Assembly (NCBI GenBank): GCA_944320785.1
Contig: CALUIR010000019.1
Coordinates: forward strand, 1 to 51,875
Direction: 5' to 3'
DNA from: an uncultured Bacteroidaceae bacterium
Lineage (GTDB): Bacteria; Bacteroidota; Bacteroidia; Bacteroidales; Bacteroidaceae
DNA length: 51,875 nt
Shown: piece by piece, positions 4,844 through 10,586 of the stretch
How the letters are laid out: each line of letters opens with the position of its first letter
Numbering within the stretch: position 1 is the stretch's first letter
Notes under the pieces: model-generated
Database searches by the model: none
What the model was told of the DNA's origin: nothing
What the model saw: only the letters and a program-made list of their open reading frames with translations
Position numbers and translations under genes: made by a program

Positions 4844-6916
4844 TCATGCCGTAACGTTTTTACCTTGAACCTGTTTCAAACCATCCCTTTCCAACAAGGC
4901 GTCCACCGTGGGTTCCTTGCCGCGAAAACGGACATAAAGCGCCATCGGCGGCTCCGTGCCGCCACGCGACAATATTTCTTTTCGGAAAGCCTCCGCTGCT
5001 TCCTTTGAAAAAATGCCTTTCTCCTTGAAAACAGAAAAAGCATCCGCTTCCAGCACTTCTGCCCATTTGTAGCTGTAATAACCCGCTGAATAGCCTCCCG
5101 AAAAGATATGGGAGAACTGCGCACTCATGCAAGCGCCTTCCACAGAAGGAAGGAGCTGGGCTGATGCCCATGAAGCTTTCTCGTAGGCTTCCACATCCCC
5201 ATCGAAAACTACATTGCGGGTATGCCATGCCATGTCCAAATAGCCGAAACCCAACTGCCGCAGGCAGGCATAACCGGCATTGAAATTAGAAGCCTCCACA
5301 ATCCGCTGCACCCAATCGTCCGGCAGGAGTTCCCCTGTCTGGTAATGCCGGGCAAAGGTGTGCAGGAATTCTTTTTCGCAGGCGAAGTTTTCCATGATTT
5401 GCGATGGAAGTTCCACGAAGTCCCAACGCACATGGGTGCCGCTCAGGCTGGCATACACCGTGTCGGCGAAGATGCCATGCAAGGCATGCCCGAACTCATG
5501 CAGGAAAGTCTTCACTTCCTCAAACGTAAGCAAAGCCGGCAATTGCCCGGAAGGCTTCGTGAAGTTCATCACCACTGAGACATGTGGACGGCTGTCTTTC
5601 CCGCCTTCTTTCCACTGCCCCTTGTATTCCGTCATCCACGCGCCGGCCCTTTTCCCGGCACGGGGATAGAAATCCATGTACAACACCGCCAGGTACCTCC
5701 CGCCGGCATCCTGCACTTCATAGGCACATACGTCCGGATGATAGACCGGGATGTCTTTATTCTCCTTGAAAGAAATGCCATAAAGGCGGCGAGCCAAGCC
5801 GAACACGCCTTCCACCACTTGCCCCAGTTCAAAATAAGGCCGCAACATCTCTGCATCCAAATCAAACTTGGAACGCTTGAGTTTTTCCGAATAAAAAGAC
5901 CAGTCCCACGGCATCAGTTGAAAGCCATCGCCCTCCTGCCTGCGCGCCAACTGCTCCACTTCAGCCACTTCAGCCACAGCTAAAGGCTTGTAAGCTGCCA
6001 GCAACTGGTCCAACAAACGATAGACAGACGGCACATCGCCCGCCATCCGTTCGTGCAACACGTATTCCGCATAATTGCCATAGCCCAGCAACTGCGCCAT
6101 CTCCATGCGGGCGTTCACCAATTGGCGGATGACAGGAAAGTTGTTGCAGGCGTTCGGTTGGGCTGCCTTCCTGTTGTACGCCCTGTAAAGTTGTTCCCGC
6201 AATGCCCTGTCCTCACAGTAAGTCATGAAGGGAACGTAAACAGGCGCCGACAGGGTGAACATCCATCCTTCTTTTCCACGGTCGGAAGCCAGCTTCCGGG
6301 CGGCTTCCACCATGTGCGGCGGCAGTCCGGCCAATTGCTTGGATTCAGTGAGCAACAACTCATAACTGTTGGTCTCCTTCAGCACATTCTGCCCGAACAA
6401 AAGCGCCAGCCTGCTGATTTCAGCCGCCAATTCGCGGAAACGTTCCCGCTGCTTGCCTTCCAGGTTTGCGCCCCGGCGCACAAAGTGGCTGTACGTTTCC
6501 TGCAAAAGCATCTTTTCTTCGGCAGAAAGCGACAAGCCGTCTCGTTTTTCATACACTTCCTTGACACGCCGGAAGAGTTCTCCATTCAAGGTCATGGAAC
6601 TTTCATGTTCCGACACCAAAGGCATCAGTTCATTGGCCAAAGCCTCCATCTCCTCGTTTGTCTCTGCGCTCAACAGGTTCTCGAACACGGTCAAGGAACG
6701 GTCCAGCAACTGGCCTGAACGCTCCAAGGCCACAATGGTGTTTTCAAATGAAGGGGATGCCGGGTTACGGCCAATGGCATCTATCTCCAAATCGTGCCGC
6801 CGGATTCCTTCCTTGATGGCCGATTCGTAATGGCTGGGTTTCAAAAGATGGAAAGGCACGGTGCCATGCGGCGTGCCAAACTCCTCCATCCACGGATTAT
6901 CAACTTGCAAAGGCAT
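4844..6916 (-). CDS. M3 family metallopeptidase (peptidyl-dipeptidase Dcp-like)
   Basis: A 690-residue zinc peptidase of family M3, which releases dipeptides or cleaves short oligopeptides. The thermolysin-like site HEFGHALHG is at about residues 473-481 and the family's glycine/tyrosine-rich substrate loop follows (FSGGYSAGYYSYKWAEV, near 620). No signal peptide is visible (start MPLQVDNPWM), so a cytoplasmic role in peptide turnover is more likely than a secreted one. Length matches Dcp/oligopeptidase A. It is the first gene of the leftward group ending with the cyclo-ligase. Its stop overlaps the first possible ATG of the lipoprotein gene. Confidence 0.94.
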   Translation of the reverse strand: MPLQVDNPWMEEFGTPHGTVPFHLLKPSHYESAIKEGIRRHDLEIDAIGRNPASPSFENTIVALERSGQLLDRSLTVFENLLSAETNEEMEALANELMPLVSEHESSMTLNGELFRRVKEVYEKRDGLSLSAEEKMLLQETYSHFVRRGANLEGKQRERFRELAAEISRLALLFGQNVLKETNSYELLLTESKQLAGLPPHMVEAARKLASDRGKEGWMFTLSAPVYVPFMTYCEDRALREQLYRAYNRKAAQPNACNNFPVIRQLVNARMEMAQLLGYGNYAEYVLHERMAGDVPSVYRLLDQLLAAYKPLAVAEVAEVEQLARRQEGDGFQLMPWDWSFYSEKLKRSKFDLDAEMLRPYFELGQVVEGVFGLARRLYGISFKENKDIPVYHPDVCAYEVQDAGGRYLAVLYMDFYPRAGKRAGAWMTEYKGQWKEGGKDSRPHVSVVMNFTKPSGQLPALLTFEEVKTFLHEFGHALHGIFADTVYASLSGTHVRWDFVELPSQIMENFACEKEFLHTFARHYQTGELLPDDWVQRIVEASNFNAGYACLRQLGFGYLDMAWHTRNVVFDGDVEAYEKASWASAQLLPSVEGACMSAQFSHIFSGGYSAGYYSYKWAEVLEADAFSVFKEKGIFSKEAAEAFRKEILSRGGTEPPMALYVRFRGKEPTVDALLERDGLKQVQGKNVTA

Positions 6917-6930
6917 GTGCGTGCTTCTCC

Positions 6931-7629
6931 CTATTTGTTTTCAGGCAACAAGCGCTCCCTGTATGCCACAAGGGCAGCCATGTCAGGTATCTCTATCTCT
7001 TTCCTGCGCAACACCAGCAACTCTTTGCTTTGAAGTTCGTTCAATGCCCTGGAAACGGACAAGCGGGTGTCGTTCAGCAGCCAGGCAAAATCTTCCATTT
7101 TTATTTTCAGCAGCTTCTGTCCCGACGGGCGTTCCGAATGGCACAGGAAGAAATGAATCATCCTCTGCTCCAAGGAATGGGCATTCCCCGACAACAGGCG
7201 ATGCCTGAACACTTGGGCGCGGTTGCTGATGATATTCAGGTAATTCAACTGGAATATCGGATATTTGCCCAACTCGGGCAAAATATAATTCTTGTCAATG
7301 CTGAACAGGTCGGCATCCGATGTCGTGAGATAGGACGCCGTGTAGTCCGTGCGCATCCCGAACAGGGAATAAGGCTCCGCCACAAACGGCTCGCCAAAAT
7401 ATTCATTCCAAACATAAAGCCCTTGCCCGTCTTTCATCTCCGACATCAAGCCGCCTTTTATCAGGAACACCAGCCGGTCGCACGAATCGCCTTGCGTGAT
7501 AATCCTTTTGCCTGCTTTCACTTTGGAAAAGTGCAGCCTGACTTTCCCCACAATCTCCGTCAAATCATTTTGGCACAATCCCTGGAACAACGGCAACTGC
7601 AACAAAGTATCATACATTGTGAAATCCAT
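6931..7629 (-). CDS. Crp/Fnr family transcriptional regulator
   Basis: A 232-residue one-component regulator. An N-terminal cyclic-nucleotide-binding-type beta barrel (VKAGKRIITQGDSCDRLVFL, about residues 36-56) is followed by a dimerisation helix and a C-terminal winged helix (MEDFAWLLNDTRLSVSRAL). The effector pocket does not show the Arg/Ser pattern of cAMP receptors, and there is no Fnr-type cysteine cluster, so the signal is unknown. MYDTLLQLP at 7617 is an alternative start. The gene ends 14 bp before the M3 peptidase gene and could be cotranscribed with it. A TATCTTTG -7 element lies about 30 bp upstream. Confidence 0.92.
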   Translation of the reverse strand: MDFTMYDTLLQLPLFQGLCQNDLTEIVGKVRLHFSKVKAGKRIITQGDSCDRLVFLIKGGLMSEMKDGQGLYVWNEYFGEPFVAEPYSLFGMRTDYTASYLTTSDADLFSIDKNYILPELGKYPIFQLNYLNIISNRAQVFRHRLLSGNAHSLEQRMIHFFLCHSERPSGQKLLKIKMEDFAWLLNDTRLSVSRALNELQSKELLVLRRKEIEIPDMAALVAYRERLLPENK

Positions 7630-7658
7630 ACGTCCTCCCGCTTTATGCTAATAGTTTA

Positions 7659-7666
7659 CAAAGATA
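7659..7666 (-). promoter_or_regulatory. Promoter -7 element for the Crp/Fnr gene
   Basis: TATCTTTG (read on the minus strand) matches the Bacteroidetes -7 consensus TAnnTTTG and lies 30 bp upstream of the start codon. A second identical copy is at 7768-7775. Neither has a TTG at the ideal -33 distance, so the calls rest on the -7 motif alone. Confidence 0.45.
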
Positions 7667-8041
7667 GCTGTATCCCGTTTGCCATGCGGCCCCGGCGCTT
7701 TCGTTTTTGACTTTTTTATTATTTCTTAAAGCTAAGGGCACTTGCCAGGAAGGCGGCAAGCAGGCAACAAAGATATCATTACAAAAAAGCATGAAGCCAC
7801 AGAAAATGCACTGCACTTCCCGCTTCCTGCTGTCCTGCCAACAAAGCTTCAGCTGGCAAAATCCGGGGGATTTCACAGGCAACACCCGGCATCCCGCCGG
7901 AAAAGCAAGCCGATTTTGCAAGCAAGATGCCAGCATCCGCCATTAATGATTTGCCATACGATTACTAATCGTCTTCGAATACGATTACTAATCGTCACGC
8001 CGTACGATTAGTAATCGTACGGCAAAATCTTCCTGAAAGTT
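7667..8041. other. Intergenic region without a supported gene
   Basis: About 375 bp between the Crp/Fnr promoter and the transposon. Short frames exist on both strands but none has a recognisable protein. Its contents are the second -7-like element at 7768-7775 and, at the right end, the palindromic repeats described separately. Confidence 0.5.
7957..8023. repeat. Cluster of three ACGATTA-type palindromes
   Basis: Three near-palindromic units, each ACGATTA-N-TAATCGT: 7958-7972, 7981-7995 and 8004-8018, spaced 23 bp. The first two have C in the centre and the third has G, so the third is inverted relative to the others. The third extends to a perfect 25-bp palindrome (GCCGTACGATTA G TAATCGTACGGC, 7999-8023, 12-bp arms). 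It could be a protein-binding array, a dispersed short repeat, or a hairpin. It ends 18 bp before the target duplication of the transposon. Confidence 0.7.
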
Positions 8042-8049
8042 TTTGGAAA
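8042..8049. repeat. Left target-site duplication of the IS1595-family element
   Basis: TTTGGAAA, identical to 10579-10586. The 8-bp length is the one typical of IS1595-family insertion. The pair brackets matching inverted ends, which fixes the element boundaries to the base. Confidence 0.88.
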
Positions 8050-8072
8050 GGCAGTTATATACAATCCTACAC
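8050..8072 (+). repeat. Left terminal inverted repeat of the transposon
   Basis: The outer end begins GGCAGTTATATAC. Compared with the reverse complement of the right end, 12 of the first 13 bases and 18 of 23 overall match. Confidence 0.82.
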
Positions 8073-8124
8073 AAGTCAGTAGCACATAACTGTTTCTATT
8101 GATTGATGTCTCAAAGATATGAAA

Positions 8125-8155
8125 AAGGCGGGACTTATCAAAATATTCCCGCCTT
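8125..8155 (-). terminator. Intrinsic terminator after the transposon lipoprotein gene
   Basis: Perfect 9-bp stem AAGGCGGGA/TCCCGCCTT (8147-8155 with 8125-8133, 13-nt loop). Read on the minus strand the stem ends in five T residues. It lies about 95 bp beyond the lipoprotein stop codon, inside the element near its left end. Confidence 0.72.
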
Positions 8156-8248
8156 AAATAATCTCTATCTATTCTACTTTAATTGCTTCAATACCATTGA
8201 AGCTAAACCTATAAATACTAAAATGTAAAACAGCATATTCAAAAGAAA

Positions 8249-8650
8249 TTAAGGTTCAGATGTTCCTACTATACTTGTTCCTGTCACTTCAATTTTAGTG
8301 TCTTTCCCCGGTTCAAGATAATAAACTTGCTGAACCCAATTATAAACAGATGAGCTATTATATCTCGTTGTAAGGTAAACCTTCACTTTTTGAGCATTTT
8401 TGTTCGCTACAAATTGCTTGCTAAATCCATCTTCTATATTTTCTATAGTATTTTGTGCGATTCTTTCTTCTTTGTCATTATACTCAAATAGAGTGACATC
8501 TATTTCAAACACTTCTGGCTGTTCTACATCATAATACATAAATGTGTAAGTTGTATCATTCACAACTTCATCATCATCCGAACATGCAGAGAACGATAAT
8601 ACCATTGCCGCACAAAGCAGCATCAAACTAAGGTACTTCAAATTTTTCAT
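8249..8650 (-). CDS. Putative surface lipoprotein carried by the transposon
   Basis: A 133-residue predicted lipoprotein. Signal peptide MKNLKYLSLMLLCAAMVLSF is followed by lipobox FSAC and then SDDDE. An S(D/E)3 run right after the lipidated cysteine matches the reported Bacteroides/Flavobacterium lipoprotein export signal, so the mature protein is predicted to face outward. The rest (about 110 residues, acidic, with YTFMYYDVEQP and VYYLEPGKDTKIEV) looks like one beta-sandwich-like domain; I recognise no family. The frame extends upstream to 8722 but the signal peptide sets the start at 8650. A good terminator follows. Its position inside the element makes it cargo, not a host gene. Confidence 0.72.
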   Translation of the reverse strand: MKNLKYLSLMLLCAAMVLSFSACSDDDEVVNDTTYTFMYYDVEQPEVFEIDVTLFEYNDKEERIAQNTIENIEDGFSKQFVANKNAQKVKVYLTTRYNSSSVYNWVQQVYYLEPGKDTKIEVTGTSIVGTSEP

Positions 8651-8968
8651 TGTACTTTGAATTAAACGTATTTTGTTGCAATATTGCCAAACAAGCATAG
8701 GCAAAGTCATACGTTTAACCAAAAGAAAAGCGCAGACTACTGCCGTACGCTCTCTGGCTCACCACAAGCCCGAATATACTATGGAGAAGTCCGCGCCAAA
8801 TGGCACGAATCCCAACGTATATTCTTTAGCTCTATCTATGTCGAGGTGGTGATTCGAGAGCGATTGAGCTATATATGTTTTCATTATAGGCATTTATGCC
8901 TAAATACGCCACAAAGTTAATTCATAAGTTTAATGTTGCAAACTTTTGTAGTAAGAAAAACTACTATA
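8651..8968. other. Non-coding part of the transposon between lipoprotein and 60-residue ORF
   Basis: About 318 bp with no convincing gene. A plus-strand frame at 8684-8920 has no recognisable features and I do not support it. The stretch holds the possible structured RNA at 8721-8796, a perfect short palindrome AGGCATTTATGCCT at 8888-8901, and a small hairpin GTAGT/ACTAC at 8948-8964. Confidence 0.45.
8721..8796 (-). ncRNA. Possible structured RNA or leader upstream of the transposon lipoprotein
   Basis: On the minus strand, GCGCGGAC (8796-8789) can pair with GTCTGCGC (8737-8730) in an 8-bp stem with one G-U pair, followed immediately by a U-rich tail (TTTTCTTTT). The roughly 50 nt in between can form inner helices, for example GGCT/AGCC and TCTC/GAGA. 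This resembles a small RNA ending in its own terminator, or a leader in front of the lipoprotein gene 70 bp downstream. The stretch is more GC-rich than the rest of the element. No known RNA family was recognised. Confidence 0.3.
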
Positions 8969-9151
8969 TCATTGATTATTTTGTTCAGAGTCCTTTTCAT
9001 CCTTATCCGATTTGATATTTGCCATTGATGACAATAGCTTATCGAATTCCTCTTTAGGAATTTGCAAGTCCAAAGTAAATTGTATAGACTTAATTTTGCT
9101 CAAGTCTACTTCTTGCCCATCTACCACTATTTTCTTTTTCTTCTTCGTCAT
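8969..9151 (-). CDS. 60-residue protein following the transposase
   Basis: A small charged protein with a lysine-rich start (MTKKKKKIVVDGQEVDLSKI) and an acidic, glutamine-rich tail (DKDEKDSEQNNQ). The middle has a plausible strand-helix pattern (IQFTLDLQIPKEEFDKLLSSM). Its ATG lies 2 bp after the transposase stop codon, so it is almost certainly cotranscribed and perhaps translationally coupled. That favours a real gene with a role in the element, such as a transposase accessory factor, but this is inference. I do not recognise a family. Confidence 0.6.
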   Translation of the reverse strand: MTKKKKKIVVDGQEVDLSKIKSIQFTLDLQIPKEEFDKLLSSMANIKSDKDEKDSEQNNQ

Positions 9152-9153
9152 GA

Positions 9154-10059
9154 TTATGCTGCTATCGTTCGCAAAAGTAAATCAAATCTTTGAGAATCGC
9201 TATGATGTCGAGTATTAAATCTGAAGATATATTCATCCACATATAGTTGCAGATGTTTTTTACTTACGCAATAATATGTGCCTAAAATCATACGCTTAAA
9301 GTGCGACCATACATTTTCTATCCCGTTTGTACTTATAGTAATCAATTCACCATCATCAGTAGCATACGTTATACCGTAAAAGTGACTTTCATGGTCTACT
9401 GATCTCTGTTCATAATCACCAATTAAACCTGTGTACTCCCATCCGTCTGTATTGACTACGCCACCATGTTCCACATATCTTCTAACTATTGGGACTAATG
9501 TTTTAGCTTGCGTGTTTGGAACGACCTTTGCTATCACTTTACCTCCTCTTTCAAGTATTCCGAATACAGGAACTTTGTCTTTGAAACTTCTTCCCTGACA
9601 CTTCTCAACCTTCTTGTCCTTGTGCCTATTCTTATTCTTTCCACCAACAAAAGTTTCGTCAATTTCAACCTCTCCAGATAGTTTATGATTGTTCTCACAG
9701 TCCATATACTGCCTAATCTTGTGCAACATATTCCAAGCCGTCTTCTGAGTTATGTGCAAATCTCTTGCTAACTGGCAAGAAGAAACACCTCTTTTGTGAG
9801 ACAAGAACAAAAACATCGCATAGAACCAATACTGCATTGGTAGTTTAGTCCCTGCAAATACCGTTCCAGTTTTTACATCAAAATATCGTCCCGTATTCTT
9901 ACAACGGTACTTGTGGTTACTACACTTGTACACTTTAGATGTTTTGTCAAATGGTGACACCACATTACCATTCCAACGTAACTTCTCAAAATACTCAATG
10001 CAACTTTCCTCATTTGGGAATGTCTGAGTAAATGACAATAAACCATCTGCTCGTCCCAT
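9154..10059 (-). CDS. IS1595 family transposase, ISXO2-like
   Basis: A 301-residue transposase. The N-terminal part carries a zinc-ribbon-like segment (VYKCSNHKYRCKNTGRYF, near residue 43) followed by TGTVFAGTKLPMQYWFYAMFL, typical of ISXO2-type proteins. An HTH-like stretch (SSCQLARDLHITQKTAWNML) precedes the RNase-H-fold catalytic domain. The acidic residues lie in VEIDETFVGGK and VNTDGWEYTG, and the third position in TNGIENVWSHFKR. Length and motif order look complete, with no frameshift. It has its own promoter and sits between intact ends, so the element could still be active. Confidence 0.93.
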   Translation of the reverse strand: MGRADGLLSFTQTFPNEESCIEYFEKLRWNGNVVSPFDKTSKVYKCSNHKYRCKNTGRYFDVKTGTVFAGTKLPMQYWFYAMFLFLSHKRGVSSCQLARDLHITQKTAWNMLHKIRQYMDCENNHKLSGEVEIDETFVGGKNKNRHKDKKVEKCQGRSFKDKVPVFGILERGGKVIAKVVPNTQAKTLVPIVRRYVEHGGVVNTDGWEYTGLIGDYEQRSVDHESHFYGITYATDDGELITISTNGIENVWSHFKRMILGTYYCVSKKHLQLYVDEYIFRFNTRHHSDSQRFDLLLRTIAA

Positions 10060-10082
10060 AGTGATTCTGTTTTTAATTTCCT

Positions 10083-10114
10083 CAAAGATAAGGAATTATA
10101 CGCAGAAAAGCAAA
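10083..10114 (-). promoter_or_regulatory. Promoter of the transposase gene
   Basis: On the minus strand: TTTG (10114-10111), 20-bp spacer, TATCTTTG (10090-10083). Both boxes fit the Bacteroidetes sigma consensus, and the -7 box is 24 bp from the transposase start. Confidence 0.6.
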
Positions 10115-10142
10115 TGATAGAAGTACAAATATCAGAAAAAGA

Positions 10143-10183
10143 AGGAAATGTGAGCATGTTATACAACACACTCACAAATTCCT
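10143..10183. repeat. Imperfect inverted repeat between the divergent transposon promoters
   Basis: AGGAAATGTGAG (10143-10154) pairs with CTCACAAATTCCT (10171-10183) apart from one inserted base. It lies between the leftward transposase promoter and the rightward zinc-ribbon promoter. It could be an operator or a hairpin. Confidence 0.4.
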
Positions 10184-10202
10184 ATCTTCATCACATATCC
10201 CT

Positions 10203-10210
10203 TACATTTG
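10203..10210 (+). promoter_or_regulatory. Promoter -7 element of the zinc-ribbon gene
   Basis: TACATTTG fits TAnnTTTG and lies 32 bp before the ATG at 10243. No TTG is at the ideal -33 distance. Confidence 0.4.
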
Positions 10211-10242
10211 TGTCAATTTACTAACATTTTAACTTTTAAAGT

Positions 10243-10377
10243 ATGCCGGAACCTGTTTGCCCTAAATGCGGAAGCGATTTTTTCCAATCAGCTCCAGCTT
10301 CCTTTGCAAGTCCTAAAAATGTGTATTTAATCTACTGTGGTAATTGTGGATGTGTAGTAGGTGCAGTATCTAAGTAA
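10243..10377 (+). CDS. 44-residue zinc-ribbon protein in the transposon
   Basis: A very short ORF encoding two zinc-knuckle pairs: CPKCG near the N terminus (residues 6-10) and CGNCGC near the C terminus (residues 32-37), separated by about 22 residues. This is a textbook four-cysteine zinc ribbon. A TAnnTTTG element lies upstream. Proteins of this size and pattern may bind nucleic acid or act as adaptors; the function here is unknown. Its 3' end overlaps the convergent 69-residue ORF by 46 bp, so possibly only one of the two is expressed. The cysteine pattern makes this the more convincing of the pair. Confidence 0.6.
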   Translation: MPEPVCPKCGSDFFQSAPASFASPKNVYLIYCGNCGCVVGAVSK

Positions 10378-10541
10378 TTTTTAGCTGCATCATGCTCTAA
10401 AACTTTATAGATATGCTCCTCAAATTCCTTATGAGTCATGGGGAGCATTTCTAACATTCCCCTAAATCCAAATCTGTGTCTACTTACATACAGCTCAATA
10501 CCTTTGCAAACACATTCTGCTATAAACTTCTTTATTCCCAT
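10332..10541 (-). CDS. 69-residue hypothetical protein near the right end of the transposon
   Basis: A small ORF starting MGIKKFIAECVCKGIELYVS, 37 bp inside the right end of the element and reading inward. It has mixed helical character (MTHKEFEEHIYKVLEHDAAKN) and a proline/threonine-rich end. I recognise no family and see no TAnnTTTG promoter. Overlap with the zinc-ribbon gene weakens the case, but it has the start, base composition and position of a passenger gene. Confidence 0.42.
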   Translation of the reverse strand: MGIKKFIAECVCKGIELYVSRHRFGFRGMLEMLPMTHKEFEEHIYKVLEHDAAKNYLDTAPTTHPQLPQ

Positions 10542-10555
10542 ACTCTAATCATTTA

Positions 10556-10578
10556 GTGTTGTTTCGTATATAAGTGCC
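10556..10578 (-). repeat. Right terminal inverted repeat of the transposon
   Basis: Read inward from 10578: GGCACTTATATAC, matching the left end at 12 of 13 positions, with further matches (ACA-type bases) to about 23 bp. Confidence 0.82.
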
Positions 10579-10586
10579 TTTGGAAA
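10579..10586. repeat. Right target-site duplication of the IS1595-family element
   Basis: TTTGGAAA, an exact copy of 8042-8049, directly abutting the right inverted repeat. Confidence 0.88.

Follow-up and report, generated by a model that had tools for sequence, protein, structure and literature searches.

A structured leader RNA ahead of a lipoprotein gene in an IS1595-family transposon from an uncultured Bacteroidaceae bacterium

Riboswitches and attenuators are 5' leaders of genes, in which a conserved core is combined with variable helices, pseudoknots, and a run of U residues, and in integron attC/cassette systems exchangeable genes are joined at a folded element. A terminal GG is a general feature of the IS1595 family of insertion sequences (ISs). 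Members of this family are known to carry passenger genes, as the relevant passage of PMC3129680 (citing Siguier 2009) states, and the passages of PMC8101967 on these groups ascribe an N-terminal zinc-finger domain to all of them but IS1016 and a terminal GG to Merlin and IS1016 elements. Among structured RNAs of Bacteroidota, Table 1 of PMC2864571 includes Bacteroidales-1, Bacteroides-1, and Bacteroid-trp. Here we describe a stretch of 51,875 nucleotides (nt) from an uncultured Bacteroidaceae bacterium (contig CALUIR010000019.1; hereafter designated the window), which contains a complete IS1595-family element of 2,529 bp at positions 8050–10578. We read this element, with a probability of about two-thirds, as a transporter IS whose passenger module consists of a cis-acting leader RNA and an exchangeable envelope gene. 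It is the RNA, not the transposon, that sets the element apart, being present in 116 of 299 related genomes, covarying strongly, reaching no Rfam threshold, and lying mostly before genes of exported proteins.

A covarying RNA ahead of the lipoprotein gene

When the whole unit was used as a DNA query, the stretch near 8725–8890 was matched at transposon-free places, and the aligned copies proved to be one RNA. Its core in the window, delimited by covariance model R1 and by covariation, occupies 8730–8875 of the minus strand, on which all parts of the leader lie, between a 60-residue open reading frame (ORF) and the lipoprotein gene; the original prediction, which took an inventory of small cargo genes, had overlooked it, although it recurs across elements. 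Covariation was counted on 83 aligned type A copies, the window included, in an alignment fitted to the helices P1 and P2, which are part of the model, and not to PK2. Pairing was found in 96.5% of the cells and changes on both sides in 20 of the 25 pairs, with a covariation score of 0.548, whereas shuffles averaged 0.208 and slid partners reached at most 0.089. The helix P1 (CGCTCTC at 8856–8862 with GAGAGCG at 8748–8754) pairs in 97.1% of the cells, P2 (TCACCAC at 8846–8852 with 8759–8765) in 99.7%, and PK2 (GCGCGGAC at 8789–8796 with GTCTGCGC at 8730–8737) in 96.8%; double changes occur in all 14 pairs of P1 and P2 and in 5 of the 8 pairs of PK2. Moreover, the PK2 cells contain 74 G-U versus 9 A-C combinations, indicating that the pairing takes place in the RNA of the leader strand.

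The helix PK1 (TAGCTC at 8866–8871 with GAGCTA at 8827–8832) is weaker than the others, yet above its control, with at least six pairs in 51 of the 83 copies, compared with an average of 34.6 and a maximum of 41 in 200 re-dealings. The P6 hairpin (GGCTTGTGGTGAGCC, 8756–8770), the loop of which contains the P2 3' strand (8759–8765), is paired in 86.6% of the cells and covaries little. The P0 hairpin at the RNA 5' end (8882–8906) is variable; of the 71 leaders examined, 70 form a stem of 5 bp or longer there. Alternatively to PK2, its 3' strand may close a terminator-like hairpin that begins at 8748–8750; this competing hairpin, formed with the P1 3' half, is paired in 84.2% of the cells. Collectively, it may be concluded that the leader RNA is real.

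No Rfam family reached its threshold with this RNA, in searches at E ≤1 on the window and at E ≤0.1 or 0.05 on 22 other loci. The weak matches, all far below the gathering scores, were BTnc005 in L020 outside the element (E 0.0016), rliH in L118 away from the RNAs (E 0.01), and four eukaryotic microRNA or small nucleolar RNA families in and beside the window unit (E 0.024–0.98), one of which touches the RNA 3' end. Nor was a description found among the titles and abstracts of the literature searched, a scope that does not establish absence from print. The leader RNA class is thus unrecorded in the databases and literature searched.

The leader is equipped with signals of its own. The octamer TAACTTTG at 8912–8919 corresponds to a −7 promoter element of consensus TANNTTTG, recognised by motif enrichment: the consensus lies within 85 nt upstream of 73 of the 83 leaders, as compared with 25 of 770 equal-sized background windows. 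The TTTG at 8939–8942, 19 nt before the −7 element, we take to be a possible −33 element. The RNA is followed by the U-run TTTTCTTTT at 8721–8729, and at least four T in a row occur within 10 nt after PK2 in 74 of the 83 leaders (background, 4.6%). An ORF of at least 60 residues starts within 130 nt downstream of 72 of the 83 leaders, with a median distance of 67 nt from PK2 to the ATG. In the window this is the lipoprotein gene at 8249–8650, encoding 133 residues from the ATG at 8650 with the lipobox FSAC, for which no Pfam family reached its cut-off (the query had one extra codon in front); it lies between the exact ends of the transposon, just as the original prediction had placed it. The motif GGCAATATTGC, at 8678–8688 of the minus strand, stands between the U-run and the start codon, and was also seen, without statistics, in the C18 copy of the same genome and in L019, L020, and L022.

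A signal peptide or lipobox, called by a simple home-made rule and with the 11 leaders lacking such an ORF excluded, was found in 63 of the 72 downstream genes; among the remaining ORFs of these stretches, the figure was 116 of 403. By Pfam, nine of the 72 encode BspA-type repeat proteins and five encode proteins with Big_2 domains, and an EcoRI-type methylase, an AIPR protein, and a caspase-domain protein occur once each; 15 models of a defence library had one matching member each. Thus, the genes preceded by the leader encode BspA-like repeat proteins, Ig-like proteins, and others that are mostly exported. Alternatively, the RNA might be a free-standing small RNA that has a promoter and a terminator of its own and that need not regulate the neighbouring envelope gene, or that acts in trans. 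Its promoter and the U-run right after a GC-rich helix would fit such an RNA, as would the 11 of 83 copies that have no ORF of that size and distance. However, the downstream genes lie on the same strand at the short median distance given above and are strongly enriched for export, and a second TANNTTTG occurs in only 2 of the 72 RNA–gene spacers, so that the gene probably depends on the leader promoter. We therefore consider an independent small RNA unlikely, though deserving of serious attention, and the RNA most likely acts in cis.

The RNA inside IS1595-family elements and at solo loci

Among 16 complete IS1595-family elements, the window included, the RNA was assigned to 10, in four sequence types (A–D), and in addition to the incomplete element L024. 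Type A is that of the window; type B, with the same helices, occurs in L019, L020, and L022; type C in L025, L028, and L029 (Chryseobacterium), which R1 matches with E values of 2e-5 to 3e-4; and type D, with every helix readable, in L190, L191, and L193. Matches across types were obtained with R2 on L028 and L029 (E about 3e-4) and on L024 (E 7e-6). The RNA lies downstream of the transposase gene in all 10 elements; the two share a strand in the window, L019, L020, and L022, and lie on opposite strands in L025, L028, L029, L190, L191, and L193. It precedes a lipoprotein gene in type B (in L022, a small membrane protein and then a lipoprotein), a secreted-protein gene in type C, and in type D a gene for a secreted protein (L190 and L191) or a membrane protein (L193). 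By our arithmetic, from 242 places and about 3 Mb per genome, chance would place about 0.01 RNA in the 53.6 kb of elements, as against the 10 of 16 assigned.

In L190, L191, and L193, the start codon is immediately preceded by a copy of the P1–P2 strand, which hints at strand exchange acting on translation in these three elements only; the copy was rejected as a general feature of type D, since the other type D loci inspected show none clearly. In L023 (P. vulgatus), a complete element, no RNA was found by R1–R3 or by reading the 460 letters before its secreted-protein gene. Likewise, three transposases of Bacteroides/Phocaeicola plasmids were accompanied by no RNA detectable with R2 or R3, and R1 gave one chance-level match (E 0.75).

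These observations bear on the view that the window element is simply a transporter IS of the known IS1595 kind, which by chance acquired a lipoprotein gene along with the untranslated leader of that gene. Passengers are indeed known in the family, and the window RNA resembles the solo copies; against this, the same RNA architecture was assigned to 10 of the 16 elements, where it comes in four sequence types and on either strand relative to the transposase, and in L019, L020, and L022 the RNA is better conserved (83–88% identity) than the transposase DNA (64–77%). A chance pick-up is accordingly improbable, in our estimation, as an account of the element.

The RNA is widespread outside these elements. 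At E ≤0.001, R1 found at least 124 places in 59 of the 299 genomes, with ten candidates scored per genome, so that the counts are lower bounds; the 80 stretches examined, together with the window, comprise 83 of the 124. R2, the type B model, found 77 places in 59 genomes and R3, the type D model, 41 places in 33, and the union of the three models gives the 116 genomes mentioned above; these counts include overlapping and antisense matches between models, and their weakest matches are unverified. Two leaders stand in tandem at L067 and at L118. By DNA similarity, the window leader RNA was found in no plasmid or phage.

At the solo loci, L077 and L124 are 98% identical downstream and 75% in the leader, whereas L061 and L124 have leaders of 99% identity with downstream DNA of 68%; the break in similarity falls inside the leader between L128 and L131 and at the leader 3' end between L087 and L091. 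In general, the solo loci compared (L077, L124, and L061; L128/L131; L106/L125; L087/L091) are mosaic, having either similar flanks around another leader core or a similar leader before another gene. In type B, the lipoproteins of L019, L020, and L022 show no significant similarity to each other, and that of L019 has relatives encoded behind two solo leaders (41% and 31%). Since the RNA is kept while the lipoproteins differ, and relatives of one of them stand behind solo leaders, leader and gene recombine. Integron-like arrays were considered and rejected, the short repeats of L060 and L067 resembling other intergenic repeats and the modules of L061 and L067 lying among ordinary genes; inspection of these two loci, L061 and L067, revealed no integron array, no systematic integrase search having been made. 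That the conserved sequence is a DNA-level recombination joint for swapping genes behind a constant leader, as these mosaics and the type B lipoproteins might suggest, is very improbable, because the compensatory changes and the excess of G-U over A-C in PK2 favour selection on a one-strand RNA, ordinary homologous recombination accounts for the mosaics, and neither locus read revealed an integron-like array.

Taken more broadly, the chances seem about even that this pseudoknotted Bacteroidota RNA belongs to an unrecorded, widespread regulatory class that serves as a shared control leader for envelope genes and accessory genes that can be exchanged, and that it is partly disseminated by IS1595 transposons whose usual cargo is leader plus gene. 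Such a module would be a mobile regulon, with the RNA constant and the protein variable.

The element at 8050–10578, its transposase, and its relatives

The element is bounded by the terminal inverted repeats GGCAGTTATATAC (8050–8062, plus strand) and GGCACTTATATAC (10566–10578, minus strand; the reverse complement of the right end), identified by reading the sequence and by comparing ends among relatives. The two agree in 12 of 13 letters and in 19 of the first 25, and both begin with GGCA, thus carrying the terminal GG of the family. Copies of the 8-bp target duplication TTTGGAAA, of the length found in IS1595 elements, flank the unit at 8042–8049 and 10579–10586. The original prediction of a complete IS1595-family transposon with exact ends, identical 8-bp flanks, and an ISXO2-type transposase was therefore borne out by the near-identical ends, by the paired ends of the relatives, which fall at equivalent positions, and by the transposase models.

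The single transposase gene (9154–10059, minus strand; 301 residues) matches PF12762 (DDE_Tnp_IS1595; E 8.6e-41, 139.9 bits, cut-off 27) and the NCBI IS1595 model NF033547 (E 9.6e-58, 195.6 bits, cut-off 75). Its N-terminal zinc finger is borderline, as PF12760 matches residues 15–54 with E 6.5e-5 and 23.3 bits, just under the curated 25.4; Cys20, Cys46, and Cys53, as well as Asp134, Asp205, Asn245, and Glu248, are invariant in nine of nine sequences. The gene is followed by a small ORF of 60 residues (8969–9151, minus strand), which had been counted among the cargo and is probably a transposase companion instead, because a similar short, lysine-rich ORF stands in the same place, directly after the transposase, in the four relatives L019, L020, L021, and L022 (E 4e-9, 8e-8, 6e-4, and 2e-3, respectively, in a comparison of nine sequences without a low-complexity filter). 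ORFs of 49–124 residues also directly follow the transposase in L023, L025, L028, L029, L190, L191, and L193; the four of them compared (L023, L025, L190, and L193) show no convincing similarity to the 60-residue protein, and no ORF of this size is listed after the transposase in L196, L199, L203, L205, and L208. Antitoxin-like genes with SocA/Panacea domains were noticed beside the companion at L020:5537-5980 and L022:5487-5942.

All the ORFs named in the original prediction are open, but those near the right end fared less well as cargo. The zinc-ribbon-like ORF of 44 residues (10243–10377, plus strand) matches NF047912 with E 3.4e-6 and 26.9 bits, short of the cut-off of 37, and has no relatives in 100 other genomes or in plasmids; the 69-residue ORF (10332–10541, minus strand) has none in 100 other genomes or in phages and matches no Pfam family. 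The two lie inside the element and overlap by 46 bp on opposite strands. Being without relatives and mutually overlapping, they are unproven as genes and hence as passengers, and neither was retained as conserved cargo. Another ORF of 44 residues (8759–8893, minus strand), which overlies the leader RNA and matches no family, was rejected as probably spurious.

The copy in the window appears to have been mobile. At the orthologous locus of G001, the only other genome of the genus compared, the crp/fnr-like gene, the metallopeptidase gene, and purA follow in the same order, and the first two are separated by 424 bp without the element, versus 3,159 bp in the window. G001 has no match to the zinc-ribbon or the 69-residue ORF; its sole DNA match to the unit is the transposase, with two candidates scored per genome, which is a weak absence as regards the lipoprotein. 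The intergenic letters of G001 are too diverged to display a single TTTGGAAA. No second full copy of the unit was found in its own assembly, which is 84% complete. The same genome has one further, diverged transposase of the IS1595 type close to a contig end (G000:C11:264-1133, L154), for which no paired ends were found. The element abuts a palindromic interspersed repeat (window 7950–8049); a query of 6900–8049 gave 79 matches in its own genome (counting both strands and the self-match) and 16 in G001, mostly to this repeat. Eleven repeat copies were inspected as paralogous empty sites and set aside, only L146 being site-like and too diverged for use.

Relatives were collected by a transposase scan of named genomes (11 loci) and a transposase profile search of the 299 related genomes, which gave matches at E ≤1e-20 in 49 genomes, stretches around 22 places being examined. 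A script that required an exact 8-bp repeat, the only length looked for, together with family-like ends was applied to 34 loci with a transposase and yielded pairs in 17; one of them, L206 (11 of 25 letters, 6.9 kb), was rejected, leaving the window and 15 relatives (L019, L020, L022, L023, L025, L028, L029, L190, L191, L193, L196, L199, L203, L205, and L208). The other 17 loci gave no end pair, several being interrupted by contig ends. In the 16 complete elements, 17–25 of the first 25 end letters match, whereas in a decoy control, with the 8-mer displaced by 5 to 40 letters, 170 tests yielded 29 pairs, which, shifted registers of true ends aside, match in 7–13 of 25 letters. Paired ends with 8-bp duplications thus exceed chance. 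The divergent relatives L205 and L208 begin with CG, not GG. Complete elements measure 2.3 to 4.6 kb, so every one found holds more than a transposase; that of L208 contains a single cargo protein of 747 residues, resembling by eye an N6-adenine DNA methylase. The contig of L019 (JAAUYS010000169.1) is labelled as a Clostridia metagenome-assembled genome and, in view of its Bacteroidota-type promoter, RNA, and lipoprotein, is probably mis-binned. No IS1595 relative was confirmed in viral contigs.

A proposed leader–envelope gene module and its relation to known systems

In the module that we propose, the transposase and its probable small companion would move the leader RNA together with the envelope gene. 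A leader RNA of about 190 nt would be made first, from its own Bacteroidota-type promoter; the lipoprotein gene starts just downstream of it. Formation of PK2 would put a GC-rich helix directly before the U-run, and the balance of PK2 and P1 against the competing hairpin would decide whether transcription stops at the U-run or reads through into the envelope gene. Folding-dependent termination would be the likeliest route of such control in cis, and a folding switch through the competing hairpin is weakly supported.

Several findings weigh against this proposal. The competing hairpin has only two pairs with double changes, and 321 of 500 shuffles scored as high; 11 of the 83 leaders, as noted, lack a suitable ORF, some of these standing at contig ends. 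No IS1595-type transposase occurs in any of the 80 type A RNA stretches, which extend up to about 5 kb per side, so that the RNA is not confined to the IS, and six of the 16 complete elements (L023, L196, L199, L203, L205, and L208) are without such an RNA. The type D assignment rests on the reading of helices and on weak cross-matches, namely R1 on L193 (E 0.02) and R2 on L191 (E 0.11). Finally, the structure descriptor, through which types B and D were first located, discriminates poorly: it scored 28–30 in L019, L020, and L022, 17, 24, and 25 in L190, L191, and L193, and 17 in the window, while the best of 48 shuffles reached 26 and a spurious-looking place inside the L196 transposase gene 27, and its best place in L025, L028, and L029 is not the RNA. 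Its best place in L023, with a score of 16, was not accepted as real.

If the leader controls the downstream genes, it would provide a way into the regulation of horizontally acquired surface proteins in Bacteroidota; it would then be an orphan switch, the signal of which could be sought in standard laboratory strains.

Compared with known systems, the transposon alone is an ordinary transporter IS, sharing with the IS1595 transporters the DDE_Tnp_IS1595 transposase, 8-bp duplications, GG ends, and passengers unrelated to transposition. It differs in that the window element and its closest relatives have a small, probable companion ORF after the transposase and in that the passenger module is headed by a structured RNA, of which the cited passages on these insertion sequences make no mention. 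The Rfam leaders and small RNAs of Bacteroidetes (Bacteroidales-1, Bacteroides-1, Bacteroid-trp, and the BTnc series) are likewise structured RNAs of Bacteroidota, whereas the present leader reaches no threshold of their models. With riboswitches and attenuators it has in common a conserved, structured leader 5' of an ORF, variable helices around a conserved core, pseudoknots, a U-run, and a possible competing hairpin, although the last is weakly supported here; it differs from them in matching no known aptamer and in that its downstream genes share export rather than a metabolic pathway. Like integron attC, it folds and lies where exchangeable genes are joined, but it stands 5' of the gene and covaries as an RNA.

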